DNA from: Parafrankia soli
GTDB lineage: Bacteria; Actinomycetota; Actinomycetes; Frankiales; Frankiaceae
DNA length: 35,987 bases
Direction: 5' to 3'
NCBI RefSeq assembly: GCF_001854695.1
Contig: NZ_MAXA01000202.1
Coordinates: 30,453-66,439, forward strand
Shown one piece after another: positions 1 to 35,095 of this stretch. A program made the position numbers and the translations under genes. The notes beneath the pieces were generated by a model. That model ran no database searches. It was not told where the DNA came from and saw only the letters and a program-made list of their open reading frames with translations. Each line of letters opens with the position of its first letter. Positions within the stretch are counted from its first letter, which is position 1.

Positions 1-3000
1 TTCGTCGAGTTCGGCCCCAAGCAGGTGCTGGCCCAGCTCACCCGGCGCATCCTCGACGACGCGCCGGTCACGGTCGTCTCCACCGACGGCGGCCCGCTGC
101 GTGACGGCGACGTCGTGCTCAAGCAGGCCGCGGTGCAGCTCGCCGTGCTGGGCCTGCCGCTGGCGGACATCAACCGCCACGACGCGACGGCCGGCGCCGA
201 GGGCGACACCGAGCAGCCGCGGCGCGCGGCGATGACGGTCACACTCACCGGCGCCGAGTACGTGCCGCAGTCCCGCCGGGCCCTTTACCAGGCGGGTCTG
301 ACCGACGGCTTCCAGGTCTCCGCGGTCGCGGCGGCCATGAACGGCGGGCCGGCGGCCGTGGCCACGCCGCCCGCCGCCCCGGCCGAGCCGGTTCCGGCCC
401 CGCAGCCCGCGCTCACCGCGGCCGCGCCGGCGGCGGCCGAGCTGCCCGCGGTTCCCGCGGTGGCCGGGTCACCCGCGGCCGCCGGCCGGCCCGCAGGCTC
501 CGCGCCGGTTCCGGCGGCCGCGGCGCTCGGCGCGGGTCCGGCCGGCGCCGGGGTCAGTGAGGCCGTCGCCCTGCACCTCGACCTGCACGGGCGCTACCTG
601 GACGGCCAGCTCCGGGTCACCGAGGAGCTGGTGGGCCTGCTGCGCGACGGCGCCCAGAACGGTGACCAGGCCGGCTGGGTGCCCGCCGCGGTCGAGCAGG
701 TCCGGGACCAGAGCCTCGCGGCGGGTCGGGCACACGTCCACGCCAACGAGGTCCTCGCCGCGCTGGCCGGCCTCGAGCTCGCGGCAGGCGGGCATGCCCC
801 GGCAGCGCCGGCCGCGGGTGCGCCCGCCCGGGTGGGGCTCGCCCCCCGTTCCACCAGCGCCGCCGGGCCGGCCGCCCTCGCACCGCCGCCCGCCGCGCCC
901 ACTGTGCCCGCCCCGGTGATCGCCGACGCACCCGCGACGGTGCCCGCCGACTCCGCCGGCCCTGTCGCGGTACCCGCTCAACCGACGGGCAACGGCCACC
1001 ATCCCCACCAGCCCGGCACCCTGATACCGGCCGCTGCCCCACTCCCCGCCGATGTGTGGCGGGTGAGTGAGTCCATGGACTCACTCACCCGCCACACATC
1101 CTCAGAGGGGGCTGAGGCTCGGCCGGCGGCCGGGCCGGATGAGGCCGGGGTGCGTACCGCGCTGCTCGGGGTCGTCGCCGACCGCACCGGCTACCCCGCC
1201 GAAATGATCGACACCGGCATGGACCTCGAAGCCGACCTCGGCGTCGACTCCATCAAACGAGTCCAAATCCTCGGCGCCCTCCAGGAGCACTTCCCCACCC
1301 TCCCCAGCGCCGGCCCCGAAACCCTCGCCGAAATGCGCACCCTCAACCACATCACCGACTACGTCCTCACCTCGCTCGCCGCCGGCGCACCCCCAGCCGC
1401 TTCGACGCCACCGAACAGCACGCTCAACGGCAGCCCCGCCGCAGCCCCCGGGGTCGACCCGGACACCGTCCGCACCGCGCTGCTCGGCGTCGTCGCCGAC
1501 CGCACCGGCTACCCCGCCGAAATGATCGACACCGGCATGGACCTCGAAGCCGACCTCGGCGTCGACTCCATCAAACGAGTCCAAATCCTCGGCGCCCTCC
1601 AGGAGCACTTCCCCACCCTCCCCAGCGCCGGCCCCGAAACCCTCGCCGAAATGCGCACCCTCAACCACATCACCGACTACGTCCTCACCTCCCTGGGTCC
1701 GGTGAACCCGGCCCCGGACGGCGCCCCGAACGGCACCTCCCCAAAAGGAGATCAGCCGAAAGGAGGTGAGCCGACCGGAACGGCCGGCCTGAACGGTCAT
1801 CACGCCGCCGGCCACGGCGATGACGCCGTACTGCCCCACCGGCCGGTCGAGCTGGTGCCGGCGGCGCCGGTCGACATCCTCGGCGCCACCCCGTTCGGCG
1901 CCGACCCGGTCGCCGTGCTCATCGACGCGACCGGCCACGACGCGCCGGCGCCTGAGCTGACGGCACTCGCCGACGGGCTGACCGCCCGCGGGTTCGCCGT
2001 CCGCACCGTGCGGCTGCCCGGCCACGGCGGGACGGCCGGCGACGGCGCCGAGCAGGCCGACCCGCTCGACGGGTGGGACGCGGCCGAGGTCGAGCAGGCC
2101 CTGGCCGGCGCGCTCGGTGGCGACGGTGCCGTCGACCTGTGCGCCCTGCTGATCGCCGCGAACGGCGGCGACGGCGCCTGGGCGGCGGGGATCCGGCGGC
2201 TCGCCGACACCGTCCTGGTCGCCAAGCACGCCGCCGGGCCGCTGTCGCGAGCCGCGGCGCGCGGCGGGCGGGCGGCGTTCTGCGCCGTCACCCGGCTGGA
2301 CGGCGGCCTGGGACTGCGCGGCGACGCGCCGGCGGTGGAGCGCCTCGTCGGCGGTGCGGCAGGCGTGGTCAAGACGCTGCTGCGCGAGGAGCCTGCGCTG
2401 TTCTGCCGCGCGTTGGACCTCCACCCCGCCCACGCCCCGGCCGCGGTCGCGGAGCTGGTTCTCACCGAGCTGTGGGACGCGGCGACCGACCTGGCCGAGG
2501 TAGGCCTGGACGCGACGGGAGCGCGCTGGACCGTCCGGCCCGGGCCCTTCGGCGACCGGGCCGCACAGGCCGAGGACCGGGAGGCCGGCACCGGCGCCAC
2601 CCTCCCGGTCCTCGGCCCCGACGACATCATCGTCGTGACCGGCGGGGCACGCGGGGTCACCGCGGACTGCGTGCGTGCCCTCGCGGCGCGGACCCGGGCC
2701 CGGTTCGTCCTGCTCGGCCGCACGGCGGCCGACAGCGACCCCGAGTGGGCGACCGGCGTCGCCGACGGCGGCCTGCTCGCCGCCGCCGCGGCGGCCCTGG
2801 CCGCGCAGGCCGGTCCTGGCGGGCCGCGCCCGACGCCCCGCCAGGCCGAGGCGGCCCGCCGCGACGTCCTGGCCCGCAGGGAGATCCGGGACACCCTGGC
2901 CGCGCTCACCGCGGCCGGCTCCGACGCCGAGTACCTGGCCGTGGACATCGCCGACCGGGACGCGGTGCGCGCCGCGCTGGAGCCCTACCGGGGCCGCGCC

Positions 3001-4383
3001 GCCGCCCTGGTGCACGGCGCGGGCGCGCTGGCCGACAGCGCGCTGACCGCCAAGACGCCCGACGCGGTCCGCCGCGTGCTCACGCCCAAGCTGACCGGGC
3101 TGCGCAACGTCCTCGACGCGCTCGGCGACGGGCCGGGCTCGCCCCTGCGCCACCTGGTGCTGTTCGCCTCGGTGGCCGGGCTGATGGGCAATCCCGGCCA
3201 GGCCGACTACGCCGCGGCGAACGAGGCGCTGGGCCGCCTCGCCGCGGGTTGGAAGCACGCCGACCGCGGCCGGCACGTCACCGCGATCGACTGGGGTGCC
3301 TGGGACGGCGGCATGGTCGACGCCGACCTGCGGGAGCTCTTCCGCTCCCGCGGCGTCGCCCTGATCGACCGGACGGCGGGCGCCGAGGCGTTCGCCGAGC
3401 AGTTCGAGCCGGCCCGGGTGGACGACGTGTGCGTCCTGGTCGGCTCCGCCGAGGCGCTGACCGGCGGGTCCGACGTCCGCCCCGCCCCGGCGCTGGTCGC
3501 CCGCCGCGAGCTGCGCGAGATCGCCGAGCACCCGGTCATCCGGGACCACCAGGTAGGCGGCTTCCCCGTCCTGCCGGCGACGTTCGGGCTCGGCTGGCTG
3601 GTCAACGTGGTCGAGCGGGCCCACCCGGGGCTGACGGTGGTCGAGGCCCGCGGGTTCGACGTCCACAAGGGCGTCGTGTTCGACGGGACGGGCGAGCTGG
3701 CGTTCCAGGTGCACACCGCGGCGGCCGAGCGCGAGGGCGCCGGCACGGGCGGACGGGTCGTCGTGAAGGCGAGCGTGCGCAGCCCCGGCGCGTTGCCGGC
3801 CGGGCTGTCGCGCTACGCCGCCACGCTGGTGCTCGCCGCCGCCCCGCCGGCTCCCGCCGAGGTCGAGGACTGGCCCCGGCTCGAAGCCGAGTGGACGGCG
3901 CCCGGCCCCGAGGACGGCCTGGAGATCTACACCGGCGCGACGCTGTTCCACGGCCCGCTGCTGCAGGGCATCCGACGGATCGTGGCGCGCGGCGACGACC
4001 GGCTGGTCGTCGAATGCCGCCTGGACGGCGCGGAGGTGGGCCGGGGCGCGTTCGCCGGCGCCCTGCACGACCCGGTGCTGGCCGACCTGCTGCTGCACGG
4101 CCCGTCCGTGCTCGGCCGGTGGCTGACCGGCCAGGCATGCCTGCCGCTGGCAGTCGGCCGGATCGACTACCGCGCGCCGCTGCCCGCCGGCGAGCCGTTC
4201 GCCGTGGTGATCGACGGCGCGGTGGTGCGCGACACCGGGGTCACCAACCGGGTGACCGCGGTCGGGCGCGACGGGCGGATCCTCGTCCGCCTGCACGACG
4301 TGGCGATGGTCGGGACGCCCGACATGGCCGCGAAGTTCGCCGAGGGCACCGCGAGCTGGCACAAGAAGGAGGTGTCCGCATGA
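1..4383 (+). CDS. pfaA: PfaA-type PUFA/secondary-lipid synthase (3' part)
   Basis: The frame is open from base 1, so the N-terminal ketosynthase and most of the acyltransferase lie outside the window. Residues below are counted from base 1. FVEFGPKQVL at 1-10 is the end of an acyltransferase domain. An Ala/Pro linker and a helical stretch (about 185-265) follow. Two ACPs carry LGVDSIKR, with phosphopantetheine serines at about 417 and 523. A ketoreductase with its structural half has VTGGARGVT near 879, Ser about 1057 and Tyr about 1070 (GQADYAAANE). A C-terminal hotdog dehydratase has HxxxGxxxxP starting at His about 1183. AT-ACPn-KR with a terminal DH-like domain is the known layout of PfaA in omega-3 and related iterative synthases. 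Two ACPs is at the low end for the family. It is coupled to the next gene by ATGA. The product (polyene, PUFA or hydroxylated lipid) cannot be read from sequence. Confidence 0.93.
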   Translation, partial: FVEFGPKQVLAQLTRRILDDAPVTVVSTDGGPLRDGDVVLKQAAVQLAVLGLPLADINRHDATAGAEGDTEQPRRAAMTVTLTGAEYVPQSRRALYQAGLTDGFQVSAVAAAMNGGPAAVATPPAAPAEPVPAPQPALTAAAPAAAELPAVPAVAGSPAAAGRPAGSAPVPAAAALGAGPAGAGVSEAVALHLDLHGRYLDGQLRVTEELVGLLRDGAQNGDQAGWVPAAVEQVRDQSLAAGRAHVHANEVLAALAGLELAAGGHAPAAPAAGAPARVGLAPRSTSAAGPAALAPPPAAPTVPAPVIADAPATVPADSAGPVAVPAQPTGNGHHPHQPGTLIPAAAPLPADVWRVSESMDSLTRHTSSEGAEARPAAGPDEAGVRTALLGVVADRTGYPAEMIDTGMDLEADLGVDSIKRVQILGALQEHFPTLPSAGPETLAEMRTLNHITDYVLTSLAAGAPPAASTPPNSTLNGSPAAAPGVDPDTVRTALLGVVADRTGYPAEMIDTGMDLEADLGVDSIKRVQILGALQEHFPTLPSAGPETLAEMRTLNHITDYVLTSLGPVNPAPDGAPNGTSPKGDQPKGGEPTGTAGLNGHHAAGHGDDAVLPHRPVELVPAAPVDILGATPFGADPVAVLIDATGHDAPAPELTALADGLTARGFAVRTVRLPGHGGTAGDGAEQADPLDGWDAAEVEQALAGALGGDGAVDLCALLIAANGGDGAWAAGIRRLADTVLVAKHAAGPLSRAAARGGRAAFCAVTRLDGGLGLRGDAPAVERLVGGAAGVVKTLLREEPALFCRALDLHPAHAPAAVAELVLTELWDAATDLAEVGLDATGARWTVRPGPFGDRAAQAEDREAGTGATLPVLGPDDIIVVTGGARGVTADCVRALAARTRARFVLLGRTAADSDPEWATGVADGGLLAAAAAALAAQAGPGGPRPTPRQAEAARRDVLARREIRDTLAALTAAGSDAEYLAVDIADRDAVRAALEPYRGRAAALVHGAGALADSALTAKTPDAVRRVLTPKLTGLRNVLDALGDGPGSPLRHLVLFASVAGLMGNPGQADYAAANEALGRLAAGWKHADRGRHVTAIDWGAWDGGMVDADLRELFRSRGVALIDRTAGAEAFAEQFEPARVDDVCVLVGSAEALTGGSDVRPAPALVARRELREIAEHPVIRDHQVGGFPVLPATFGLGWLVNVVERAHPGLTVVEARGFDVHKGVVFDGTGELAFQVHTAAAEREGAGTGGRVVVKASVRSPGALPAGLSRYAATLVLAAAPPAPAEVEDWPRLEAEWTAPGPEDGLEIYTGATLFHGPLLQGIRRIVARGDDRLVVECRLDGAEVGRGAFAGALHDPVLADLLLHGPSVLGRWLTGQACLPLAVGRIDYRAPLPAGEPFAVVIDGAVVRDTGVTNRVTAVGRDGRILVRLHDVAMVGTPDMAAKFAEGTASWHKKEVSA
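1051..1100. repeat. Perfect 50-bp palindrome inside pfaA
   Basis: The 25 bases at 1051-1075 are the exact reverse complement of 1076-1100, with no spacer. The element lies in the non-conserved linker before ACP1, is read through in frame, and encodes about 17 residues (DVWRVSESMDSLTRHTS). It would form a 50-nt hairpin in mRNA or a cruciform in DNA. It resembles a small insertion (REP- or MITE-like) tolerated in a linker, but I see no second copy in this window. Confidence 0.95.
1156..1691. repeat. Direct repeat encoding two near-identical ACPs
   Basis: Bases 1156-1373 and 1474-1691 (218 bp each, offset 318 bp) differ by eye at a single position (1170/1488), a silent change. Each encodes one ACP with LGVDSIKR. 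The repeat is also rich in A-ending codons (gaa, aaa, caa, cga), which are rare in the surrounding GC3-rich gene. This indicates recent duplication or ongoing gene conversion, possibly of a segment with a different origin. Confidence 0.95.
1759..1769 (+). promoter_or_regulatory. Internal perfect Shine-Dalgarno-like site
   Basis: AAAGGAGGTGA is fully complementary to the 3' end of typical 16S rRNA, and is preceded at 1743-1750 by AAAAGGAG. No start codon is suitably placed downstream, so it is not an initiation site. It falls in the ACP2-KR linker (PKGDQPKGGEP). A translational pause between domains is possible; this is inference. Confidence 0.4.
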
Positions 4384-6656
4384 CAGTCGAGATGACCGGA
4401 CCGGCCCTCGCGACACCGTTCGTCGCGGAGGACGACGAACTGTCGTTCTACGGGGAGCCCTTCGACAGCCTGCGACTGACCGCCATGGGACCGACAGCCG
4501 CGGCGCCGTCCACACCAGCACCACCCACGCCAGCGCCGCCCACGGCCCCGCAACCCGCCGCGGCGGCGGCCGGCCCCGCACCGCGGATCGCGGATGTCGT
4601 CCGCGAGGTGCGCGCGGTCGTGGTGGCCGCCCACGAGTCGGCGCTGAACGCGCAGCTCGCGCTCACCCGGCTCACTCTCGCGGGTCCCGGCCGGCCGTTG
4701 GCAGCCGGCTCGCAGGCGCTCGTCCTTCCGCCGGCCGCCGCGGCCGCGGGCGTTCCAGCTGTGGCGGCCGGGCCGGTTGCTCCGGACGTCGCGCCGACGG
4801 ATCCGGTCACGACGGAGGCGGCGTTCAAGCCGCTCGCCCGCTCCGGGCGCCGGGAGCTCACCGACGCCGACCTGGCCGCGCTGAGCCGCGGCGAGGTGGC
4901 CGGCGTCTTCGGCCCGGCCTACGACCAGGAGGGCGTCAACCCGGACGTTCGGCTCACCGACCCCGGCGAGGCGGCCCTGCTCACCTGGGTGGCGGACCTG
5001 CGGCTGCGCGGCGGGAGCCGCACCGCGGGCTCGCTGCACGCCGGGCTGCGTGCGCTGCCCGGCACGGCCGCGCCCGGCTCGTTCGCCGGAGCGGCCGGGT
5101 CCGGTTCGCTGGCCGACGCGCTCCAGGCGGCGGCCGCGCAGGCCGCCAAGGTGTTCGCCCTCTACGCCGGCCTGCACCTGTGCCTGGCGGACGCCCGGTT
5201 CGTCGCCGGCCCGCCGGCCGAGGACGCCGACGGCGGCCCGCGCACCGGCGCGCGGCCGCCCGCCCCGACGGTGGCCCTCACCGCCGACGGCGGGGGCTGG
5301 GACGGCACCGGCGGCGAGCTCGTCCTCGACGTCACCGCCATCGACCTGATCCCGCGGCCCTGGCTCGCCGTGCGCGCGCTGGTCCACGCGGGCGGCCGGC
5401 TGGTCGCCGAGGTCCGCGACGTCGCGGTCACCGTGCGGGAGCGGCCGGGCGCGCCGGTCGGCGCCGACCACGGCGGGGCCGTCACCGCGTTCCTGGGCCG
5501 GCGCACCGCGGCCGGCGAGCGGGCGCTGCTCAGCGAGTTCCACATGGCCCACTGCGCACGCGGCGACCAGGGCGTCGGCCTCGGGCCCGAGTTCGCCGCC
5601 TACCGGGGGCGACGTGCGACCCGGCTGCCCGGCGGCGGCCTGCGCCTCGTCGACCGGGTGATGGCGATGGACTCGCGGCGCGGTGACCTGCGCGGCGGGG
5701 CGACGCACGTCACCGAGTACGACGCGGCGGCCGACTGCTGGTACTTCACCGAGACGGCGAACGCGTCCATGCCGAACTGCGTCTACATGGAGACCAGCCT
5801 GCAGGCCGCGCTGATGCTGGGCTACTACCTCGGCGCCACGCTGGCCGAGCCGGCGGAGGACTACAGCCTGCGCAACCTCGGCGGCAGCGCGACCGTGCTG
5901 CGGGAGGTCGACCTGCGCGACGCCACGATCCGCCAGCACTCGACGCTGCTGTCGACCAACCCGATGCCCGGCACGGCCCTGCAGGACTTCTCCTACGAGC
6001 TCGCCGTCGACGGCGAGCCGTTCTACACCGGCGAGTCGATGTTCGGCTACTTCAACGCCCCGGCGCTGGCCCGCCAGACCGGCCTGGACGGCGGCCGCCT
6101 CGAGCCGACCTGGCTGGACGCGCTCGACGAACGGGAGCGCCCACCGATCCGGATGATCGATGTGGCCGCCCGCCGCGCCGACCCGGCCGCGCCGCTGTGC
6201 GCCCGCGGCCACCTGGCGCTGCTCGACGACGTCGAGGTGGTGGACGGCGGCGGCCGGTTCGGGCAGGGCTACCTGCGCGCCGTGCGGCCGATCGACCCGG
6301 CGGACTGGTTCTTCGCCCGGCACTTCTACCTCGACCCGGTCATCCCCGGCTCGCTCGGGGTGGAGGCGGTCATCCAGGCCATGCAGGAGTGGGTCATCGA
6401 CGCCGGGCACCTCGCCGGCCTCACCCGGCCCGGGTTCGTGCTACCCGTGGGCGTGCCCCTGCAGTGGAAGTACCGCGGCCAGCTCCTGCCCACCGACGGG
6501 ACGTTCACCCTGGAGGTGCACATCAAGGACGTCAGCCACCGGCCCGGACGGGTCCGCGTCACCGCCGACGCGAGCCTGTGGAAGCCGACGATGCGCATCT
6601 ACGAGCTGATTGACGTGGCCGTGGAGCTGCGTGACGAGGGCGCGCCGTCATGGTGA
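4380..6656 (+). CDS. FabA-like tandem dehydratase (PfaC DH part)
   Basis: Predicted 758-residue protein matching the dehydratase half of PfaC, here free-standing rather than fused to KS-CLF. It begins with a low-complexity Pro/Ala stretch and a helical segment. A degenerate region starting VFGPAYD and a hotdog-like segment precede two recognisable FabA-like units. In the last unit HFYLDPVIPGSLGVEAV gives His648 and Glu662, with the 14-residue spacing of FabA His70/Asp84, so it should be active. In the preceding unit MPNCVYMETSLQAA supplies Glu471, but the residue 14 before it is Thr457, not His. The expected role is dehydration of beta-hydroxyacyl-ACP and perhaps double-bond isomerisation during chain building. 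The start ATG overlaps the previous stop (ATGA) and has the strong site AAGGAGGTG 5 nt upstream. Substrate-level function is inferred. Confidence 0.88.
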   Translation: MTVEMTGPALATPFVAEDDELSFYGEPFDSLRLTAMGPTAAAPSTPAPPTPAPPTAPQPAAAAAGPAPRIADVVREVRAVVVAAHESALNAQLALTRLTLAGPGRPLAAGSQALVLPPAAAAAGVPAVAAGPVAPDVAPTDPVTTEAAFKPLARSGRRELTDADLAALSRGEVAGVFGPAYDQEGVNPDVRLTDPGEAALLTWVADLRLRGGSRTAGSLHAGLRALPGTAAPGSFAGAAGSGSLADALQAAAAQAAKVFALYAGLHLCLADARFVAGPPAEDADGGPRTGARPPAPTVALTADGGGWDGTGGELVLDVTAIDLIPRPWLAVRALVHAGGRLVAEVRDVAVTVRERPGAPVGADHGGAVTAFLGRRTAAGERALLSEFHMAHCARGDQGVGLGPEFAAYRGRRATRLPGGGLRLVDRVMAMDSRRGDLRGGATHVTEYDAAADCWYFTETANASMPNCVYMETSLQAALMLGYYLGATLAEPAEDYSLRNLGGSATVLREVDLRDATIRQHSTLLSTNPMPGTALQDFSYELAVDGEPFYTGESMFGYFNAPALARQTGLDGGRLEPTWLDALDERERPPIRMIDVAARRADPAAPLCARGHLALLDDVEVVDGGGRFGQGYLRAVRPIDPADWFFARHFYLDPVIPGSLGVEAVIQAMQEWVIDAGHLAGLTRPGFVLPVGVPLQWKYRGQLLPTDGTFTLEVHIKDVSHRPGRVRVTADASLWKPTMRIYELIDVAVELRDEGAPSW

Positions 6657-8302
6657 CCCCGGTCGCGCCCGCCCCCCGCGCCGCGGCGGCCCGGCCGGCC
6701 ACGGCCCACCCCGGCGCGGCCGGGGCACTCGCCCGGCGGCCGGCCGACATCCACCGGGTGCTCGCCGATCTGGAGCGGCCCTGCTACGTCGTGCAGGACG
6801 CGGCTGGGCTCGGCGTCACCGGCGACGAGCGGGTCGCCGCGGCGGCCGGGCGGGTCCTGGCCGCGGTCGGCCCGCTGCCGCCGGAGCGCCTCGGCGCCCC
6901 GGCGTTCCGCCGCGACCACCAGGTCGCCCAGGCGTACATGGCCGGGTCGATGGCTAACGGCATCGCGTCGGCCGACCTGGTCGTCGCGCTGGCCCGGGCG
7001 GGCTTCCTGGCCTCGTTCGGCGCGGCCGGCGTCGTCGCCGCCCGGGTCGACGACGCGCTGGCCGACATCCGCCGGCGGGCACCGGGCCTGGCGTTCGGCT
7101 GCAACCTGATCCACAGCCCGACCGAGGCGGCGATGGAGCGCGACGTCGTCGACGCCTGCCTGCGCCACCAGGTGCGCTGCGTCGAGGCGTCGGCGTTCCT
7201 GGACCTCACCCCGCAGGTGGTGCGCTACCGGGTCGCCGGGCTGCGCCGCGGCCCCGACGGCCGGGTCGTCGCCGACAACCGGGTCGTCGCCAAGGTGTCG
7301 CGCACCGAGGTCGCCGAGTTGTTCCTGCGGCCCGCGCCGGCCGCGCTGGTCCGTCCGCTGGTGGAGCAGGGGCTGGTCAGCGCCGAGCAGGCGGAGCTGG
7401 CGGCGACGGTGGCGATGGCCGACGACATCACCGGCGAGGCCGACTCCGGCGGGCACACCGACCGCCGGCCGCTGCCCGTCCTGCTGCCCGAGCTGCTCGC
7501 GCTGCGCGCCAGCCTGCGCCGCGACTCCGGGGCGCGCACGGTGCGGATCGGGGCGGCCGGCGGGCTCGGCACCCCGCGCGCCGTCGCCGCCGCGTTCACG
7601 CTCGGCGCCGACTACGTGGTCACCGGCTCGGTGAACCAGGCCTCCGTCGAGGCGGCGCAGTCGCCGGCCACCAAGACGCTGCTGGCGCAGGCCGGGGTCA
7701 CCGACTGCGTCCAGGCGCCGTCGGCGGACATGTTCGAGATCGGCGCGGACGTCCAGGTGCTCGGCCGGGGCACCATGTTCGCGTCGAAGGCCCGCCGGCT
7801 CTACGACCTGTACCGCCGTTTCGACGGGCTCGACGAGATCCCCGCCGACGAGCGCGCCGGCCTGGAACAGCGGATCTTCCGCCGGTCCCTCGACGAGGTC
7901 TGGGCGGACACCGTCACCTTCTTCAGCACCCGCGACCCCGAGCAGATCGAACGCGCCCGAGAGAGCCCGAAGCGGCGGATGGCGCTGGTCTTCCGCTGGT
8001 ATCTCGGCCTGTCGTCGGGCTGGAGCATCACCGGCGTCCCGGACCGGGTCGCCGACTACCAGATCTGGTGCGGCCCGGCGATGGGCGCCTTCAACACCTG
8101 GGTGCGCGCCAGCGCGCTCGAGCCGCTGGCGAACCGGCACGCCGCCGTGATCGCCGCCGAGCTGATGCGCGGCGCCGCGTTCACCAGCCGGGCCGCCGCG
8201 CTGGCCCAGGCCGGCGTCCGGCTGCCGGCGCTCGCCACGACCTACGTGCCGCGGCCGCACCTGCCGCGACCAGATTCCGATCCGGGAGAGCAGGCACCAT
8301 GA
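6650..8302 (+). CDS. pfaD: PfaD-type FMN enoyl reductase
   Basis: The 550-residue length is typical of PfaD, the trans-acting enoyl reductase of PUFA synthases, a TIM-barrel flavoprotein related to nitronate monooxygenase and FabK. Recognisable features are the [14 protein letters not shown] region near residue 100, [16 protein letters not shown] with [11 protein letters not shown] (phosphate/FMN binding side, about 303-325), and [17 protein letters not shown] near 378. A C-terminal cap carries WYLGLSSGW. It reduces selected enoyl-ACP intermediates and so helps decide which double bonds remain. ATG at 6650 overlaps the dehydratase stop by 7 bp, and its own stop overlaps the next start (ATGA). 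No unusual residues noticed. Confidence 0.93.
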
Positions 8303-10143
8303 CAGCATCGGCAACCCGGCAACGGCCCGAGGCGGATCTCGGGACGGCGGAATGGCTCGTCTGCGACGGCTGCCGCCGGATGATCTACGGCCGGCGGTTC
8401 GCCCGCGGCGGGCACGTCTGCCCCGAATGCGGCTGGCACGCCCGGCTGACCGCGACGCAGCGGATCGCGCTGCTGCTCGACGAGGACTCCGTCGAGGTGG
8501 TCGACACCCCGGTCACCGCGGCCGACCCGCTGCAGTTCGTCGACACCCGCCCGTACGCCGACCGGCTGCGCTCGGCTCGGGCGTCCACCGGGCTGCCCGA
8601 GGGGGTCGTGGTGGCCCGCGGACGGATCGAGGGTGCCCCGGTCGTCACCGCGGTGATGGACTTCCGCTTCCTCGGCGGCAGCCTCGGCGCCGCCGTCGGC
8701 GAGGCGATCACCGGCGCCTGTGAGATCGCGCTGCGCGAGCGCACCCCGCTGCTGCTGGTGACCGCCTCCGGCGGCGCGCGGATGCAGGAGGGCGCGCTGT
8801 CGCTGATGCAGATGGCGAAGACGGCCCAGGCGATCGGCCAACTCGACGAGGCCGGCATCCTCACCGTCTCCCTCATCACCGACCCGACGTTCGGCGGGGT
8901 CGCGGCCTCGTTCGCGACGCTGACCGACGTCATCGTCGCCGAGCCCGGGGCACGGCTCGGTTTCGCCGGGGCGCGGGTGATCGAGCAGACCATCCGGCAG
9001 ACGCTGCCACCCGGCTTCCAGACCGCGGAGTTCCTGCTGGCGCACGGCGTCGTCGACCTGATCAGCCCGCGGGCGCAGCTGCGCCCGACGCTGGCCCGCC
9101 TGTTCGGCGTCGCCACCCGCCGCCCCGGCACCGCGCCGGTCACGCCCGGCGACGGGCACAGCGCTGGCGACGGGCGCGGTGCCGGCGACAGCCGCGGCGC
9201 AAGCCACGGCGGTGACGGTGTGGTGCGGGATCCGGCGCGGCTGGCGGACCGCCATCCGTGGGAGGCCGTGCGGCTCGCCCGCAGGCTGGGCCGGCCCAGC
9301 ACGCTGGACTACATCGGCGCGCTGGTCGAGGACTGGACCGAGCTGCACGGCGACCGGGCCGCCACCGACTGCCCGGCGATGGTCGCCGGGCTCGGCCGCC
9401 TCGACGGGACGCCCGTCGTCGTCATCGGCACGCAGAAGGGCCACACCGCCACCGAGCTCGCCGCCCGCTCCTACGGCATGCCCTCGCCCGGCGGCTACCG
9501 CAAGGCCGCGCGGGTGATGCGGCTGGCCGCCAAGCTGGGCCTGCCGGTGATCACCCTCATCGACACCGCCGGCGCGCACCCCGGCATCGAGGCCGAGCAG
9601 AACGGGCAGGCCGTCGCCATCGCCGAGAACCTGCGGGTGATGGCCGGGCTGCCCGTGCCCGTCGTCGCCGTCGTGACCGGCGAGGGCGGCAGCGGCGGGG
9701 CGCTGGCCCTGGCCGTCGCCAACCGGGTGCTGATGTGCGCGAACGCGATCTACTCGGTGATCAGCCCCGAGGGCTGCGCCGCCATCCTGTGGAAGGACCC
9801 GGCGGCCGGGCCGGACGCGGCCGCGGCGCTGCGGGTCGACGCCCGCGCGCTGCTGGCCGCCGGGATCGTCGACGGGGTCGTCCCCGAGCCCGACGGCGGC
9901 GCGGACGTCGACCCGCTGGCCGCCGCCGACGCGCTGCGGGCCGCTCTCACCGGCGCGCTCGCCGAGCTGACGCCGCTGGACCCGCCGACGCTGGTGACGG
10001 CCCGACGGGCCCGGTTCCGCCGTTTCGGTACCCCGGCCCCGGCGGGCGGGGCCGCCCCGGCTCCCGTCGTCCCGGCGGCACGTCCACCACTCGGCGCGGG
10101 ACGGACCCATGCCGATCTCGACGATGCGAGGCGCGCGTCATGA
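8299..10143 (+). CDS. accDA: Fused acetyl-CoA carboxyltransferase beta-alpha
   Basis: Predicted 614 residues. The N-terminal half is AccD: a zinc ribbon with Cys22, Cys25, Cys41 and Cys44, then [20 protein letters not shown] and [16 protein letters not shown] Gly/Asp/Ser linker (about 280-310, repeated GDG/GAGD) leads to an AccA half beginning [15 protein letters not shown] and containing [37 protein letters not shown] and [13 protein letters not shown]. It transfers carboxyl from carboxybiotin to acetyl-CoA, giving malonyl-CoA. Beta-alpha fusions are known in actinobacteria. Its place between pfaD and accB suggests a dedicated malonyl-CoA supply for the lipid synthase rather than housekeeping use; that is inference. 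Both ends overlap the neighbouring genes by ATGA. Confidence 0.95.
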
Positions 10144-10763
10144 CCACGTCCACGGCCAACGGCCGGTCCACGACGACGGCGAACGGGCACGGTGACATCG
10201 GCACGGTGCTGGCGGTGCTGCGCCAGGAGGCGCTGGAGGTCGGCGCGCGCGGCGCGCGGCCGGTCAGCCGGGTGCGGGTGACCGTCGGCGACGTCTCCCT
10301 GGAGGTCGACTGGGCCGGGCCGGGCGGGACCACCGGCTCCGACGGTCCCGGTCAACACAGCACGCCCCCGCAGGCCAACGGCTCCGGCGGTCTCGGCTCA
10401 GTCAGCGCCGCGCCCAGCGACACCAACGGTTCCGCCGCGTCGGGCGCTGACGCCGGTGTTGGTGCCGCGGCACCGGCCGGTCCGGCGGACGACGACGCAC
10501 TCGCGTTCGTCATCCCTGCACACACCGTCGGCGTCTTCTACCACGCGCCCGAGCCGGGCGCGGACCCGTTCGTCCGCCCCGGGGACACCGTCGTCGCCGG
10601 CCAGCAGGTCGGGATCATCGAGGCGATGAAGCTTATGATCCCGGTCGAGGCGGAGCGCGGTGGGCGGGTCCGGGAGATCCTGGTCGCCGACACCACCCCG
10701 GTGGAGTACGGCGAACCGCTGCTCACCCTCGACGTCGCCACGTCCACCGGCGGGACCTCGTGA
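10140..10763 (+). CDS. accB: Biotin carboxyl carrier protein
   Basis: Predicted 207 residues. The N-terminal helical part ([15 protein letters not shown]) and a short beta segment are like AccB. A long Gly/Ser/Ala linker (about 60-120) precedes a biotinyl domain with the EAMKLM motif. Lys164 is the biotin attachment site, and the fold ends [21 protein letters not shown]. It carries carboxybiotin between the carboxylase AccC and the carboxyltransferase AccDA. The start ATG at 10140 overlaps the accDA stop, and the end overlaps the accC GTG start (GTGA). The extended linker is longer than in many AccB proteins but is common in high-GC species. Confidence 0.95.
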
Positions 10764-12106
10764 TCAAGAAGGTCCTGATCGCGAACCGCGGGGAGATCGC
10801 GCTGCGGGTCGCGCGCACCTGCCGCGAGCTGGGCATCGCCACCGTGGCCGCCCACTCGTCGGCGGACCGGGACTCCGCCGTCGTCTCCTTCGCCGACGAG
10901 TCCGTCCAGATCGGCCCGGGGCCGTCCCGGGACAGCTACCTCAACATCCCGGCGGTCGTCGAGGCCGCCCGTATCCGCGGCGCCGACGCCGTCCACCCCG
11001 GGTACGGGTTCCTCTCCGAGAATCCCGACTTCGCCGAGATCTGCGCGGCCGAGGGCCTGACGTTCATCGGCCCGCCGGCCGAGGTGATGGCCCGCCTCGG
11101 TGACAAGGCCGTCGCCCGTCGGATCATGTCCGAGGCCGGGCTGCCCCTGCTGCCCGGCAGCCGGGACACCCCCGACCACCCCGAACAGGCCGCGCAGGTG
11201 GCGGCCGAGATCGGCTACCCGGTCATCATCAAGGCGGCGGCCGGCGGCGGCGGGCGCGGGATGAGCGTCGTGCACGATCCGGACGGCTTCGAGCGCGCCT
11301 ACCGGCACACCCGCTCCACCGCCCAGGCGGTGTTCGGGGACGGCCGCCTGTACGTCGAGCGTTACCTGGCCTCGGCGCGGCACGTCGAGGTCCAGGTGCT
11401 CGCCGATGCGCACGGCGCGGCCGTCCACCTGGGCGCCCGGGACTGCTCGCTGCAGCGCCGGCACCAGAAGCTGGTCGAGGAGACCCCGGCGCCGGCCCTG
11501 CCGGCCGAGATCGTCGAGCCGCTGTGCGCGGCGGCCGTGCGCGGCACCCTGGCCAGCGGGTATGTCGGCGCGGGCACCTTCGAGTTCCTCGTGGACGGCG
11601 AGGGCCGGTTCTACTTCATGGAGGTCAACTGCCGGCTGCAGGTGGAGCACCCGGTCACCGAGATGGTCACCGGGCTCGACCTGGTCGCCGAGCAGATCCG
11701 GATCGCCGCGGGCGAGCCGCTGGGCTACGGCCAGGACGACGTCGACCCGCGCGGGGTGTCGATCGAGTGCCGGATCAACGCCGAGGACCCGCGTCGCGAC
11801 TTCGCCCCCGCGCCGGGTTCGCTCACCGAGTTCACCGTCCCGGCCGGCCCGTTCGTCCGCGTCGACACGCACGCCGCCCCCGGGTACCGCATCCCGGCCT
11901 ACTACGACTCGTTGGTGGCGAAGGTGGTCGTCTGGGCCCCTGACCGCCCGCGGGCCCTGGCCCGGATGCGCCGTGCACTCGACGAACTGCACGCTGACGG
12001 TCCCGGTGTCGTCACCACCACGGGCTTCCTGCGCGAGCTGCTCGACCACCCCCGCTTCGTCGCCGCCGAACACGACACCGTCCTGATCGAGTCCCTGACC
12101 CGCTGA
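10760..12106 (+). CDS. accC: Biotin carboxylase
   Basis: Predicted 448 residues, the full usual length. It starts [18 protein letters not shown] from GTG at 10760, overlapping the accB stop. ATP-grasp features are IIKAAAGGGGRGMSVV near residue 155, the RHVEVQVLAD strand, DCSLQRRHQKLVEE, and FMEVNCRLQVEHPVTEM near 290 (most homologues have NTR where this has NCR). The C-terminal biotin-carboxylase domain is complete. It carboxylates biotin on AccB using ATP and bicarbonate. It is the last gene of the coupled operon. No long acyl-CoA carboxylase fusion is present, so this looks like a dissociated bacterial-type ACC. Confidence 0.95.
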   Translation: MIKKVLIANRGEIALRVARTCRELGIATVAAHSSADRDSAVVSFADESVQIGPGPSRDSYLNIPAVVEAARIRGADAVHPGYGFLSENPDFAEICAAEGLTFIGPPAEVMARLGDKAVARRIMSEAGLPLLPGSRDTPDHPEQAAQVAAEIGYPVIIKAAAGGGGRGMSVVHDPDGFERAYRHTRSTAQAVFGDGRLYVERYLASARHVEVQVLADAHGAAVHLGARDCSLQRRHQKLVEETPAPALPAEIVEPLCAAAVRGTLASGYVGAGTFEFLVDGEGRFYFMEVNCRLQVEHPVTEMVTGLDLVAEQIRIAAGEPLGYGQDDVDPRGVSIECRINAEDPRRDFAPAPGSLTEFTVPAGPFVRVDTHAAPGYRIPAYYDSLVAKVVVWAPDRPRALARMRRALDELHADGPGVVTTTGFLRELLDHPRFVAAEHDTVLIESLTR

Positions 12107-14433: not shown

Positions 14434-15393
14434 TCAGTTGTCGTGGAAGGTCAGTCGGTCGGAGAGGCGGACGAGCCCGGTGGCGACCACCCCGAACGCG
14501 ACGAAGAACAGCAGTCCGGCGCTGGCCGCGAAGCCGGCGTCGAAGTTCTGGAAGCCCCACTCCCAGAGCAGGTAGTAGACGTTCGTCGTGGCGGAGTCCG
14601 GGCCGCCCTGGGTGAGGGTGTCGATCAGCGGGAACGTGAGCTGGCCGGACATCAGCACGGTCATCAGCGCAAGGAACACCAGCGTCGGGGAGAGCAGCGG
14701 CAGGGTGATCCACCGGGTGGTCTGCCAGCGCGAGGCCCGGTCGAGCATCGCCGCCGCCGTGTACTCGTCGTCGATGCCCGCCAGGCCGGCGCTGACGACG
14801 AGGACGGCGAAGCCGAGCAGGTGCCACCCGGTGATCACGACGATGGCGATCTGCGCCGGCCCCGGCTCGTGGATCCAGTTGATCGGATGTCCGATCAGCC
14901 GGTCCACCGCGCCGCTGGTCGGGTCGAGCATCCACTGCCACACCGCGGCGCCCGCCACCGGCGGGACCAGGACCGGCGCGAAGATCATGGCCCGGTAGAC
15001 GGCGCGGCCGCGGCCGCGGATGGCGGACGTCCACAGGGCGACGACGGTCGGCAGCGCGACGGTGAACAGCAGCAGCGCCAGCGTCATCGCCGCGGTGAGC
15101 CACAGGGCGTGCCACAGATCGGGCAGCTCGAGCAGCCGGCGGTAGTTGTCCAGCCCGACGGGTTCCTTCGGCGTGGTCGGCAGGAGGTTCCAGGAGAAGA
15201 ACGACAGGTTGACCGCGGCGGCGAGCGGCCGGTACGTCCACACCGCCAGGCAGCCGATCGCGGGCAGCAGGAACAGGTACGGCGGCAGCGCCCGCAGCAG
15301 CCGCCGGGCCGGCGACGGCCGCGCCGCCGCGACCGGTACGACCGTCGCCGACGGCCGGGGCAGCGCGTCGATCTCGACGAAGGCTCCGGTCAT
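14434..15393 (-). CDS. ABC sugar permease, MalF/UgpA type
   Basis: Predicted 319 residues. After a short cytoplasmic tail the first membrane segment is ALPPYLFLLPAIGCLAVWTY; about five more follow. The EAA loop appears as YTAAAMLDRASRW, continuing to ITLPLLSPT, near 228-252. The TQGGPDSATTNVYYLLWEWGF segment is characteristic of MalF/UgpA permeases of CUT1 importers. An in-frame GTG lies one codon upstream (15396), but the GGAGG site 7 nt before ATG at 15393 favours the ATG. The gene follows the binding-protein gene after a hairpin-containing gap of 135 bp. Confidence 0.92.
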   Translation of the reverse strand: MTGAFVEIDALPRPSATVVPVAAARPSPARRLLRALPPYLFLLPAIGCLAVWTYRPLAAAVNLSFFSWNLLPTTPKEPVGLDNYRRLLELPDLWHALWLTAAMTLALLLFTVALPTVVALWTSAIRGRGRAVYRAMIFAPVLVPPVAGAAVWQWMLDPTSGAVDRLIGHPINWIHEPGPAQIAIVVITGWHLLGFAVLVVSAGLAGIDDEYTAAAMLDRASRWQTTRWITLPLLSPTLVFLALMTVLMSGQLTFPLIDTLTQGGPDSATTNVYYLLWEWGFQNFDAGFAASAGLLFFVAFGVVATGLVRLSDRLTFHDN

Positions 15394-15453
15394 CACCCTT
15401 CCTCCAGCTCGCTACGGCAGTTCAGTTCGATACGGCAGGTCGGTGCGGACGGC

Positions 15454-15492
15454 GTCCCGCCCGCCGCGCGGGACCGGCACGGCGGGCGGGAC
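15454..15492. terminator. Strong hairpin after binding-protein gene
   Basis: A perfect 13-bp GC stem (15454-15466 with 15480-15492), 13-nt loop, lies just downstream of the binding-protein stop on the - strand. Between a binding-protein gene and its permeases such hairpins usually stabilise the upstream message or partly terminate, so more binding protein than membrane protein is made. The role here is inferred. Confidence 0.6.
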
Positions 15493-15499
15493 GGGCACA

Positions 15500-15526
15500 C
15501 AGGTGGAACAGGCGGAACAGGCGGAC
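15500..15526. repeat. Three 9-bp tandem repeats
   Basis: Units CAGGTGGAA, CAGGCGGAA and CAGGCGGAC follow each other immediately after (3' of) the stop codon of the binding-protein gene on the - strand. Probably slippage-derived; no function assigned. Confidence 0.7.
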
Positions 15527-15528
15527 GG

Positions 15529-16923
15529 TCAGGACCGGGGCAGCAGCTTCGCGGCCTGGTTCTGGGCGTCGGTGAGCGTCTTCTGCGGGTCGGCGCCGCT
15601 GTAGACGACGCTCTCGACCGCCTCGAGCATCCCGGTGCGGATCTGGACGTAGTTGTTGCCCGGGAAGGACACCCACGGCTTCAGCTTCGCGAGCTGGTCG
15701 ACGTTCGGCTGGACCAGCGGGTTCTCCGCGGCCCAGGTCTTCAGCCCGTTCGGGTCGTCGAGCAGCCCGGTGCGCAGCGGCAGGTAGCCGATCTTGCTGG
15801 TGATCTGCGTGTAGGCCGCGTCGCTGGTCAGGTAGGTGATCAGCTCCCAGGCGGCCCGCTGCTTCGCGGCGTCCTTGGCGAACATGAACAGCGCCGCCCC
15901 GGAGTTCGTCGGCACGACCGGCTTGCCGGTGAAGCTCGGCATGACGGTGGCGCGCAGCGTCCACGGCGGCTTGGCGCCGCCGGCGCCCTTGATGAAGGTG
16001 CCCTGCGCCGCGCTGGTCTCGACGATCATGCCGATCTCACCGCGGGCGAACGCCGGGTAGGCCTGGTCCTGCGACAGCTTCGGGCTGGCGCCGGAGTTGA
16101 CCAGGTCCTGCGCCATCTCGACCGCCTGCACCGCGGGCGCCTCGGCGAAGGTGAGCTTGGTGCGGTCCTCGGAGATCACCGAGCCGCCGTTGGAGGCCAC
16201 CACCGCCTGGTAGCACCAGTCACCGGAGACCTTGGTGAAGCAGTCGATGTAACCGCCGTTCTTGCCGGTCTTCGCCTTGATGGCCAGCGCGGCGGTCTTG
16301 AACTCGTCCCAGGTCGTCGGCGGCTTCTCCGGGTCGAGGCCGGCCTGGGTGAACAGGTCGGCGTTGTAGTAGAGCACCGGGGTGGAGAAGACGAACGGCA
16401 CACCGTAGGTCTTGCCGTCGACGTCGCCGAGGGTGCGCGCCGTCGGCGCGAACGGGTGGGTGCCGGCGAAGTTCTCCTGGACGGCGTCGCGCCCGACGAT
16501 GTCGTCGAGCGGCTTCGCGCCGAGCGCGGTCGCGGTGTAGCCGAGGTCGCCGAAGGTGAGCTGGGCGACGTCGGGGGCGTTGCCGGTGGCGATCTGGGCC
16601 TGGATGCTGGCGGTCGACGCCGAGCCGTAGCCCTTCAGGGTGGAGGTCTGCGGCTTCTGCGCGGTGACCGAGATGTTCGGGTGGGCCTTCTCGAAGTCGG
16701 CGATCAGGCCGTTGAAGGTGTCCGTCCACGGGCCGGGCTGGGCGAGGTTGTAGCTCTCGAAGACGATCGAGACCTTCTGATCCGGCCCGAGCTCGGGCAC
16801 GACCCCGGCGGTGGACGTTCCGCCCGCGTCGGCGTCGTCGTCGGATCCGCAGGCGGCGAGGGTGAGGGCGAGCGCGGCAGCGCAGGCGGCCGCCACGCCC
16901 CGGGCAAAGCGCCGTCGTTTCAC
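15529..16923 (-). CDS. ABC sugar-binding lipoprotein
   Basis: Predicted 464 residues, an extracytoplasmic family-1 binding protein (UgpB/MalE type). The twin-Arg-like start MKRRRFARG, hydrophobic segment and lipobox LAACG show export and lipid anchoring. The mature part has VSIVFESYNLAQPG, FEKAHPNISVTAQ, IATGNAPDVAQLTFGD, YGVPFVFSTPVLYYNADLF and PPTTWDEFKTAA, all typical of the family. Two Cys about ten apart (DCFTKVSGDWC) could form a disulfide. GTG at 16923 is chosen because AAAGGAG lies 7 nt upstream; it overlaps the ATPase stop (GTGA). It delivers an unknown carbohydrate-like ligand to the two permeases. Confidence 0.93.
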   Translation of the reverse strand: MKRRRFARGVAAACAAALALTLAACGSDDDADAGGTSTAGVVPELGPDQKVSIVFESYNLAQPGPWTDTFNGLIADFEKAHPNISVTAQKPQTSTLKGYGSASTASIQAQIATGNAPDVAQLTFGDLGYTATALGAKPLDDIVGRDAVQENFAGTHPFAPTARTLGDVDGKTYGVPFVFSTPVLYYNADLFTQAGLDPEKPPTTWDEFKTAALAIKAKTGKNGGYIDCFTKVSGDWCYQAVVASNGGSVISEDRTKLTFAEAPAVQAVEMAQDLVNSGASPKLSQDQAYPAFARGEIGMIVETSAAQGTFIKGAGGAKPPWTLRATVMPSFTGKPVVPTNSGAALFMFAKDAAKQRAAWELITYLTSDAAYTQITSKIGYLPLRTGLLDDPNGLKTWAAENPLVQPNVDQLAKLKPWVSFPGNNYVQIRTGMLEAVESVVYSGADPQKTLTDAQNQAAKLLPRS

Positions 16924-18116
16924 GTCGAGCTCCTTTGATGAGTGGTCACGCCGTCGTGGAGTGCCGCGGCCGGCTCGTGGTCGGCCGACTGGCGGTCGGC
17001 CAGCGGGCGGTCGGCCAGCGGGCGCCAGGCGAGCCGCCGGCCACTGTGCCGGTCGAACAGGTGGATGTGGTCGCGCGCCGTGGTGAGCGCGACGGGCTGG
17101 CCGGCGGCCAGCCCGAGGGGGCGGGCGCCCCGGAAGTGCACGAGGGCGCCGCCGACCGCGCACTGCGCGGACTCCTCGGCGCCGAGGTTCTCCACCGCCC
17201 GCACGACACCGCGCAGCCGCGGCATCCCGCCCGGGCCCGCCGGGCCCTCGGCGGCCATCAGGTGGAGGTGTTCGGGCCGGATCCCGAGGATCACGTCGCG
17301 GGCCTCGACGTCCTCGCCGGGCCACAGGTCGACCTCGACGTCGTCGGCGAGCACCCGCACCCGGCCGTCGTGGCACTCCACCCGGGCGGGCAGCAGGTTC
17401 ATCGGCGGGGAGCCGAGGAAGCCGGCGACGAACACCGAGGCCGGGGTGTCGTAGACCTCGGTCGGCGTGCCGAGCTGCTCGAGGCGCCCGTCGTCGAGCA
17501 TCGCGATCCGGGTCGCGAGGCTGAGCGCCTCGACCTGGTCGTGGGTGACGTAGAGGACGGTGCTGCCGAGGGTCTCGTGCAGCATCCGGAACTGGGCCCG
17601 GGTCGCCTGGCGCAGCTTGGCGTCCAGGTTCGACAGCGGCTCGTCCATCAGGAACGCCCGCGGGTCGCGGATGATCGCCCGGCCGACGGCGACCCGCTGG
17701 CGCTGGCCGCCGGAGAGCTCCCGCGGCCGGCGGTCGAGCAGCGGGCCGAGCTCGAGCAGCGCGGCGACCTCCTCGACCCGGCGGCGGACCTCGGCGCGGG
17801 GCGTGCGGGCCGCGCGCAGCGGGAAGCCGATGTTGCGGGCCACGGTCAGGTGCGGGTACAGGGCGTAGCTCTGGAAGACCATCGCCAGGTCGCGCCGGGC
17901 GGGCGGGGCGTGGGTGATGTCCCGGCCGTCGAGCAGCACCCGGCCGCCGGACGGCGTGATCAGGCCGGCGACGAGCCGCAGCAGGGTGGACTTCCCGCAG
18001 CCGCTCGGGCCGAGCAGCACCAGGAACTCGCCGTCGGCGATGTCGAGGCTGACGCCGTCCACGGCGACGACGTCGCCGTATCTCTTCGTCAGCCCGTCGA
18101 GCTCGATCCTGCCCAC
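16920..18116 (-). CDS. ABC importer ATPase, MalK/UgpC type
   Basis: Predicted 398 residues. Walker A GPSGCGKST, signature LSGGQRQRVAVGRA, Walker B AFLMDEPLSNLDAKL and the switch His in TVLYVTHDQVEA are all intact. The C-terminal OB-like regulatory domain (ILGIRPEHLHLM) is present, as in CUT1 ATPases. The tail carries a short repeat (PLADRPLADRQSADHEP). GTG at 18116 is preferred over an upstream ATG because the conserved protein begins MGRIELDGLTKRYGD and GGGGAGGAG lies 6 nt upstream. It is the first gene of the operon, which is less usual than having the binding protein first. It energises the transporter at the inner membrane face. Confidence 0.93.
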   Translation of the reverse strand: MGRIELDGLTKRYGDVVAVDGVSLDIADGEFLVLLGPSGCGKSTLLRLVAGLITPSGGRVLLDGRDITHAPPARRDLAMVFQSYALYPHLTVARNIGFPLRAARTPRAEVRRRVEEVAALLELGPLLDRRPRELSGGQRQRVAVGRAIIRDPRAFLMDEPLSNLDAKLRQATRAQFRMLHETLGSTVLYVTHDQVEALSLATRIAMLDDGRLEQLGTPTEVYDTPASVFVAGFLGSPPMNLLPARVECHDGRVRVLADDVEVDLWPGEDVEARDVILGIRPEHLHLMAAEGPAGPGGMPRLRGVVRAVENLGAEESAQCAVGGALVHFRGARPLGLAAGQPVALTTARDHIHLFDRHSGRRLAWRPLADRPLADRQSADHEPAAALHDGVTTHQRSST

Positions 18117-33871: not shown

Positions 33872-35095
33872 GTGACCCCCGTCCACGAGCTGGCGGGAGC
33901 GACCGCGCCGATCTGGATGTGGACCTCTCCACAGGAGGTCGAAAGCGCCGCGCTCGACCAGCTCCGCACCATCGCGGAACTCCCCTACGTCCACCACCAC
34001 GTCGCCGTCATGCCGGACGTCCACCTCGGCAAGGGCGCGACGGTCGGTTCGGTGATCGCGCTGCGTGACGCCGTCTCCCCGGCCGCCGTCGGGGTCGACA
34101 TCGGATGCGGGATGGCCGCGCTGCGGACCAACCTGACCGCCGCCGACCTGCCCGACGACCTCGGGCCGGTACGGGCCGCGGTCGAGGCAGCCATCCCCGT
34201 CGGCCATCGCGGGCACACCGAGATCTCCCGCCGGGTCCGCGGCTACGCCGACCTGTGGGGGACCTTCGGCGACCTGCACCCCAAGGTCACCGGGCGCAGC
34301 GGCAGCATCGACCGGGTGATGGCGCAGATGGGCAGCCTGGGCTCGGGCAACCACTTCGTCGAGCTCTGCCTGGACACCGAGGACGCCGTCTGGCTCATGC
34401 TGCACTCGGGCTCGCGCAACATCGGCAAGACCCTCGCCGAGCTGCACATCGCGGCCGCGAAGAAGCTCCCGCACAACACCGGCCTGCGCGACCGGGACCT
34501 CTCCGTCTTCCTCGCCGGCACCCCCGAGATGGCCGCCTACCGGGCCGACCTCACCTGGGCGCAGACCTACGCGCGCCGCAACCGCGACACCATGCTCGCT
34601 CTCTACGTCGACGCGCTGCGCGACCACCTGCCCACGCTGCGCGTGCCGACCCCGCCCACGCACGGGCCGCACGCCGCCGACACCGCCTTCGCCGCGGTCA
34701 ACTGCCACCACAACTACGTCGCCGAGGAGCACCACTACGGAGCGGACGTCCTGGTCACCCGCAAGGGCGCGATCTCGGCCCGGGCCGGCGAGTACGGGAT
34801 CATCCCCGGCTCCATGGGCACCCGCTCGTACATCGTCCGCGGCCTCGGTAGCGCCGAGTCGTTCCACTCGGCCGCGCACGGCGCCGGGCGGCGGATGAGC
34901 CGTACCCGTGCCCGCAAGGAGTTCACCACCGACGACCTCGTCGCCCAGACCACCGGCGTCGAGTGCCGCAAGGACCCCGGAGTCCTCGACGAGATCCCCG
35001 CCGCCTACAAGGACATCGACGCCGTCATCGCCCACCAGAGCGATCTCGTGGACGTCGCCGCCGAGCTGCGCGCCGTCCTCTGTGTGAAGGGCTGA
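33872..35095 (+). CDS. rtcB: RtcB RNA-splicing ligase
   Basis: Predicted 407 residues. HHVAVMPDVHLGKGATVGSV, VGVDIGCGMAA (metal Cys), MGSLGSGNHFVELC (metal His), LHSGSRNIG, AVNCHHNYVAEE (metal His), GIIPGSMGTRSYIV and SFHSAAHGAGRRMSR with the guanylylated His are all intact. RtcB joins RNA 2',3'-cyclic phosphate ends to 5'-OH ends using GTP and Mn; in bacteria it is linked to RNA repair. GTG at 33872 gives the normal N-terminus; GAGGAG lies about 9 nt upstream. No RtcA, RtcR or archease gene is nearby. A TetR gene converges from the right. Confidence 0.95.
   Translation: MTPVHELAGATAPIWMWTSPQEVESAALDQLRTIAELPYVHHHVAVMPDVHLGKGATVGSVIALRDAVSPAAVGVDIGCGMAALRTNLTAADLPDDLGPVRAAVEAAIPVGHRGHTEISRRVRGYADLWGTFGDLHPKVTGRSGSIDRVMAQMGSLGSGNHFVELCLDTEDAVWLMLHSGSRNIGKTLAELHIAAAKKLPHNTGLRDRDLSVFLAGTPEMAAYRADLTWAQTYARRNRDTMLALYVDALRDHLPTLRVPTPPTHGPHAADTAFAAVNCHHNYVAEEHHYGADVLVTRKGAISARAGEYGIIPGSMGTRSYIVRGLGSAESFHSAAHGAGRRMSRTRARKEFTTDDLVAQTTGVECRKDPGVLDEIPAAYKDIDAVIAHQSDLVDVAAELRAVLCVKG

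Follow-up and report, generated by a model that had tools for sequence, protein, structure and literature searches.

The first 12,106 nt of the DNA analysed here probably form the core operon of an iterative secondary-lipid synthase of the PUFA type (Pfa), equipped with its own acetyl-CoA carboxylase (ACC) for malonyl-CoA supply, a reading in which we have good confidence. The window, by which we mean the whole stretch of 35,987 nt, corresponds to contig C202:30453-66439 in a genome of 8.03 Mb, whose close relatives by sequence, Parafrankia colletiae and Parafrankia sp. EUN1f, make a Parafrankia its most likely host. Six genes occupy positions 1 to 12106 of the window on the + strand: a pfaA-like gene (3′ part only), followed by genes for a PfaC-type dehydratase (DH) protein, PfaD, an AccD-AccA fusion (AccDA), AccB and AccC. 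Genes, domains and junctions are as follows.

1..4383, + strand: 3′ part of the pfaA-like gene (end of the AT, two ACPs, KR, PKS-type DH).
C202:27843-34835 (window -2609 to 4383), + strand: full pfaA-like gene, GTG start, 2330 aa.
1159..1365, + strand: ACP domain 1, phosphopantetheine site LGVDS.
1477..1683 (boundaries approximate), + strand: ACP domain 2, phosphopantetheine site LGVDS.
2629..3306, + strand: KR domain, Y-x-x-x-N present.
3523..4320 (end approximate), + strand: PKS-type DH domain, HxxxGxxxxP motif.
4380..6656, + strand: dehydratase protein of 758 aa that stands alone, equivalent to the DH half of PfaC minus KS-CLF.
6207-6605, + strand: FabA-like C-terminal domain of the DH protein, HFYLDPVIPG.
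6650..8302, + strand: PfaD-type FMN enoyl reductase of the PfaD family, 550 aa.
8299..10143, + strand: AccD-AccA fusion, 614 aa, E. coli-type carboxyltransferase with zinc ribbon CX2C...CX2C.
10140..10763, + strand: biotin carboxyl carrier protein (AccB) of 207 aa; the Lys of its biotinylation motif, EAMK, is at 10629-10631.
10760..12106, + strand: AccC, biotin carboxylase, 448 aa, called from Pfam/NCBIfam matches and motifs.
pfaA/DH junction: 4 bp overlap, ATG at 4380 and stop at 4383.
DH/PfaD junction: 7 bp overlap, ATG at 6650 and stop at 6656 (4 bp with the alternative GTG at 6653).
PfaD/AccDA junction: 4 bp overlap, ATG at 8299 and stop at 8302.
AccDA/AccB junction: 4 bp overlap, ATG at 10140 and stop at 10143.
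AccB/AccC junction: 4 bp overlap, GTG at 10760 and stop at 10763.

All five of the five junctions overlap, by 4, 7, 4, 4 and 4 bp, in agreement with the 4–7 bp overlaps of the original prediction, and Pfam/NCBIfam searches upheld its reading frames and domain calls for the six genes. Elsewhere on the contig, overlaps of 1–10 bp occur at 8 of 43 same-strand junctions as delimited by a crude gene caller. Catalytic motifs are intact throughout the synthase (the Cys and His of the KS, GHSFG in the AT, a serine in each of the two ACPs, the KR Tyr/Asn and the His motifs of the DHs) and the carboxylase (AccD zinc ribbon, AccB biotinyl lysine, two AccC motifs).

The complete PfaA-like protein has the order KS-AT-ACP-ACP-KR-DH, with the KS and most of the AT upstream of the window. 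The domains of the AT-ACP2-KR-DH arrangement previously read from the window alone are all present, and the AT at the left edge is just the end of this larger, KS-containing protein. A gap at that edge was ruled out, as only a single ambiguous base (C202:30452) is found there and the frame is continuous. The TIGR02813 PfaA model matches both halves of the protein (906 and 614 bits, each half scored by itself because the window edge divides the protein; the model's cut-off, 1010, refers to the full-length protein). The AT carries GHSFG and, further on, an AFH motif, a pattern that goes with malonyl rather than methylmalonyl specificity. The N-terminal half of the DH protein receives no Pfam name and is PfaC-like by eye; as had been proposed, the dehydratase half of PfaC stands alone, free of KS and CLF. 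PfaD exceeds its model cut-off clearly (TIGR02814, 613 bits against 449) and matches the solved PfaD chains 6lkc and 4yx6. The features that define a Pfa secondary lipid synthase, namely a PfaA-like KS-AT-ACPn-KR protein, tandem ACPs and PfaD, are therefore all in place.

Comparison with the canonical pfaABCDE synthase of EPA/DHA reveals a shared framework of a PfaA-like KS-AT-ACPn-KR protein, a PfaC-type DH protein and PfaD. In contrast, the cluster described here lacks PfaB and the KS-CLF in PfaC that characterizes a canonical PUFA synthase, has two ACPs instead of four to six, carries one more DH domain where PfaA ends, and adds a complete ACC. A KS/CLF and a phosphopantetheinyl transferase (PPTase) had been expected to the left of the window; the KS was indeed found there, a CLF was not, and the neighbouring genes examined included no PPTase. 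The cluster contains a single KS only, with no second KS or CLF detected.

AccA, AccB, AccC and AccD, each with its catalytic motifs, make up a complete E. coli-type acetyl-CoA carboxylase. Both parts of AccDA score above their TIGR cut-offs within a single chain, the start of which was moved from the earliest possible position, 8068, to 8299. AccB (96 bits) falls below the curated NCBIfam cut-off of 115 and retains the biotinylation motif, and AccC (615) lies below the TIGR equivalog cut-off of 626.5. A complete four-activity enzyme could be the housekeeping acetyl-CoA carboxylase, placed beside the pfa genes by chance, but this is highly improbable. The usual actinobacterial FAS-II operon, fabD-fabH-acp-fabF-accD, lies elsewhere in the genome (contig C102), and contig C251 encodes a BC-type (BC-BCCP) protein with a PccB-type subunit; another acyl-CoA carboxylase pair adjoins an acyl-CoA dehydrogenase on contig C216 (gene names at these loci and the next two read in part by eye). 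A second set of E. coli-type subunits is also present, which ruled out the operon AccDA as the only E. coli-type carboxyltransferase in the genome. Its AccDA (C101:1104-2669, L128; 62% identity over the AccA part) adjoins an ACP gene and a fragment resembling a KS; its AccB/AccC (C262:27206-28923, L173 17907-19624; AccC 65%) are next to cyclase, ketoreductase and monooxygenase genes. In addition, complete relatives, such as genome G010, lack the carboxylase of the operon. We therefore rejected the housekeeping reading, which is largely refuted by the fabD-fabH-acp-fabF-accD operon and the other carboxylases; the original prediction had itself named the absence of a second, identical carboxylase operon as the outcome that would point to a housekeeping role, and other carboxylases do exist in the genome.

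The ends of contigs C101 and C262 are probably two pieces of a single type II PKS cluster that has a carboxylase of its own. Because this second AccDA/B/C set adjoins type II PKS genes, a pathway-bound carboxylase is probably used twice in the genome. A second PfaD, together with a KS-AT-ACP cluster and no carboxylase, was observed at C238:2201-10900 (L015; KS 50%, PfaD 53%); FRAAL1675, from its F. alni counterpart, appears in the accessible part of a published symbiosis phyloprofile (PMC10252897).

Conservation of the block was examined in other genomes, where a search for the same gene order had been recommended. The order pfaA-DH-PfaD-AccDA-AccB-AccC recurs in Frankiaceae and in several other actinobacteria (Actinokineospora, Thermocatellispora, Saccharopolyspora indica, Nocardia inohanensis and Pseudonocardia parietis); in N. 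uniformis the contig begins inside the cluster. Junctions in these relatives mostly overlap or are a few bases apart. In Amycolatopsis sp. GM8 and A. pithecellobii, an intact PfaD-AccDA-AccB-AccC block is located upstream of the ligase. Among 35 Frankiaceae genomes, AccA of this type was found in 23 of the 24 with this PfaD and in none of the 11 without it (Fisher p ~3e-8, kinship ignored), and the lone PfaD-positive exception is an assembly in ~1310 contigs. Pairwise distances of PfaD, AccD, AccA, AccC, KS, AT and DH correlate at 0.77–0.91, shared ancestry being ignored. An AccDA-type carboxylase is absent at the locus in Rhodococcus jostii, Streptomyces himastatinicus and Nocardia salmonicida, as well as in most Streptomyces with the CLF-containing synthase type. 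Since these synthase relatives have none at the locus, the carboxylase is a frequent rather than a universal part of the cluster, and no strict requirement.

Because malonyl-CoA is diffusible, 'dedicated' refers here to supply and does not imply exclusive use. This property, and the related clusters that manage without a carboxylase, would fit an enzyme that travels with PfaD and serves as a general malonyl-CoA top-up for secondary metabolism or lipid storage, with no special coupling to the synthase. Such a role is unlikely given the overlaps at all five boundaries, retained in many relatives, and the near-perfect co-occurrence of carboxylase and PfaD in Frankiaceae. Dedicated supply, as originally proposed, is instead made likely by its context: the block is conserved and has moved as a unit, the carboxylase co-occurs with PfaD, and the housekeeping ACC genes are separate. 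An ACC distinct from the housekeeping enzyme and co-inherited with its pathway is what a pathway-dedicated carboxylase should look like.

In a PfaD tree, Frankiaceae form three or more groups interspersed with other genera, a pattern suggestive of transfer between actinobacteria, although several deep forks are weakly supported. The PfaD gene is split in two frames in Parafrankia sp. EUN1f (L061/L067 4156-5747), Protofrankia coriariae BMG5.1 (L060 9222-10800) and Candidatus Frankia californiensis (L069 ~6.0-7.2k), reflecting either sequencing errors or gene decay. Near the DH gene, at the place taken by AccDA/B/C in other relatives, Nocardia aurantia and Nocardia sp. alder85J encode a PccB-type carboxyltransferase and a BC-type protein (L080 14460-17987; L083 ~14987-17968). 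This pair might be an independently recruited replacement supply, or a catabolic neighbour.

Genes for an acyl-CoA ligase, a geranylgeranyl-reductase (GGR)-like flavoprotein, an acyl-CoA dehydrogenase, a hotdog protein, an alpha/beta hydrolase and a GDSL hydrolase lie directly upstream on the same strand. Further upstream of the pfa genes are P450 and LysR genes and a divergent set encoding an FAAL (by eye), a diiron-like protein, a 4HBT thioesterase, an ACP, a CMAS-type methyltransferase, an FA_desaturase_2 protein and a flavoprotein. The FAAL, ACP, CMAS and FA_desaturase_2 genes map to C202:9209-16050 (window -21243 to -14402), and this set is beside the pfa genes in F. alni too. One of its products, a 262-aa protein, has no Pfam or NCBIfam match and is diiron-like by sequence. 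In F. alni ACN14a, the homologues form one row on one strand, in the order FAAL, diiron, thioesterase, ACP, CMAS, desaturase, P450, LysR, ligase, GGR, GDSL and pfaA, continuing with DH, PfaD, AccDA, AccB and AccC. On the basis of this single row we take ~C202:9209-42558 as the probable extent of the pathway. Within the window, ARAGORN calls a tRNA-His at 33885-33965 (−) inside a long opposite-strand frame (33872-35095, +); it may be a false positive.

From gene content and context we infer a scheme covering catalysis, dedicated supply, coupling, pathway extent and product. AccC would carboxylate the biotin on AccB, and the AccDA fusion would move the carboxyl group onto acetyl-CoA to give malonyl-CoA, which the AT of the PfaA-like protein would load onto the tandem ACPs. 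The single KS would elongate the chain, and KR, the two kinds of DH and PfaD would process each round to yield a long acyl chain that is partly unsaturated or reduced; the originally suggested polyene or special envelope lipid would be a candidate product. The overlapping stop and start codons would couple translation of the carboxylase to that of the synthase. Chain release and modification would probably fall to the upstream ligase, GGR-like, dehydrogenase and hydrolase genes and the FAAL-diiron-thioesterase-ACP-CMAS-acyl-ACP desaturase set.

The cluster itself is already known. Shulse and Allen reported that the secondary lipid synthase they call Type M is conserved in F. alni ACN14a, Frankia sp. 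CcI3 and EAN1pec (accessible text of PMC3098273). The genome taken as CcI3 encodes just one PfaD-family protein and one close PfaA-type KS, each of them in this cluster, and for this reason the locus is most likely Type M; the Type M strain list also fits the distribution of the cluster. F. alni genes FRAAL3189-3196 are in the published symbiosis phyloprofile as well (accessible part of PMC10252897). In the accessible parts of three Frankia mutant papers, no gene of the cluster is named. Whereas the operon here carries a complete ACC, the accessible text of PMC3098273 mentions no carboxylase for Type M, and we found no remark on a complete attached carboxylase in the accessible literature on the cluster.

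Dedicated ACCs on polyketide-type clusters have precedents. Inactivation of JadJ lowers jadomycin (cited in the accessible part of PMC4943663), and persiamycin PerHIJ, with the same three kinds of subunit, is annotated as a carboxylase (PMC7296137); like these and the second set in the same genome, the enzyme described here would be a pathway-bound source of malonyl-CoA. JadJ and PerHIJ, however, belong to aromatic type II PKSs and not to a PUFA-type iterative type I synthase. The Type R cluster of Candidatus Koribacter also has an ACC gene within a pfa-like cluster, but according to the accessible text it is a partial ACC in one genome of the type (PMC3098273). PUFA-like clusters of Streptomyces and Catenulispora (L097-L123) share a related KS, DH and PfaD (PfaD 55–61% identity) and differ in an extra KS-type region, a KS with a probable CLF, which separates the DH protein from the DH of PfaA. 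In most of them no ACC lies nearby; three have an AccD-type match further downstream, and in the two of these that were extended it belongs to a complete AccDA-AccB-AccC set with 52–59% identity. The locus varies a known kind of cluster, pairing a PUFA-type synthase that has no CLF with a complete carboxylase inherited along with it.

A narrower proposal, compatible with dedicated supply, is that the product of the locus is a lipid of the envelope around the nitrogen-fixing vesicle. It draws on analogy with the PUFA-type synthases of other nitrogen fixers, which make the chains of heterocyst glycolipids in cyanobacteria and of cyst phenolic lipids in Azotobacter (Table 1 in the accessible part of PMC3098273). 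Across the 35 Frankiaceae genomes, cluster and nifD are both present in 21 and both absent in 7 (agreement 28/35; Fisher p 0.004, kinship ignored). Pujic and colleagues identified 108 genes common to symbiotic Frankia and absent from two non-infective strains, among them FRAAL3189, 3191, 3194, 3195 and 3196; in the accessible part of their paper, they comment on accA solely as a malonyl-CoA source (PMC10252897). By coordinates, FRAAL3191 and FRAAL3195 are the GGR and PfaD genes of the F. alni cluster. Against these points, the cluster is missing from four nif-positive genomes and occurs in three nif-negative ones, orthologues occur in Nocardia and other genera, and Frankia strains do not form one clade in the PfaD tree. 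Nocardia and the other orthologue-bearing genera are not known to form vesicles. Hopanoids, moreover, are named as the envelope lipid in the accessible part of published vesicle work (PMC12501873). With seven of 35 genomes discordant, the link to nitrogen fixation is suggestive only, and a clean link is weakened further by the non-monophyletic PfaD tree. A vesicle lipid is thus a doubtful assignment. We consider it similarly improbable that this CLF-less, single-KS synthase and an obligately coupled, co-transferred carboxylase together produce a vesicle lipid or another envelope lipid of Frankia; if they did, malonyl-CoA supply would be switched on together with envelope building.

PUFA-type synthases compete with ordinary fatty acid synthesis for the same malonyl-CoA, and where a complete carboxylase travels with the enoyl reductase, some actinobacteria may be meeting this competition with a supply of their own. 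The carboxylase also marks one widespread, uncharacterised lipid pathway, which in Frankia is one lipid locus among those tracked to symbiotic strains.
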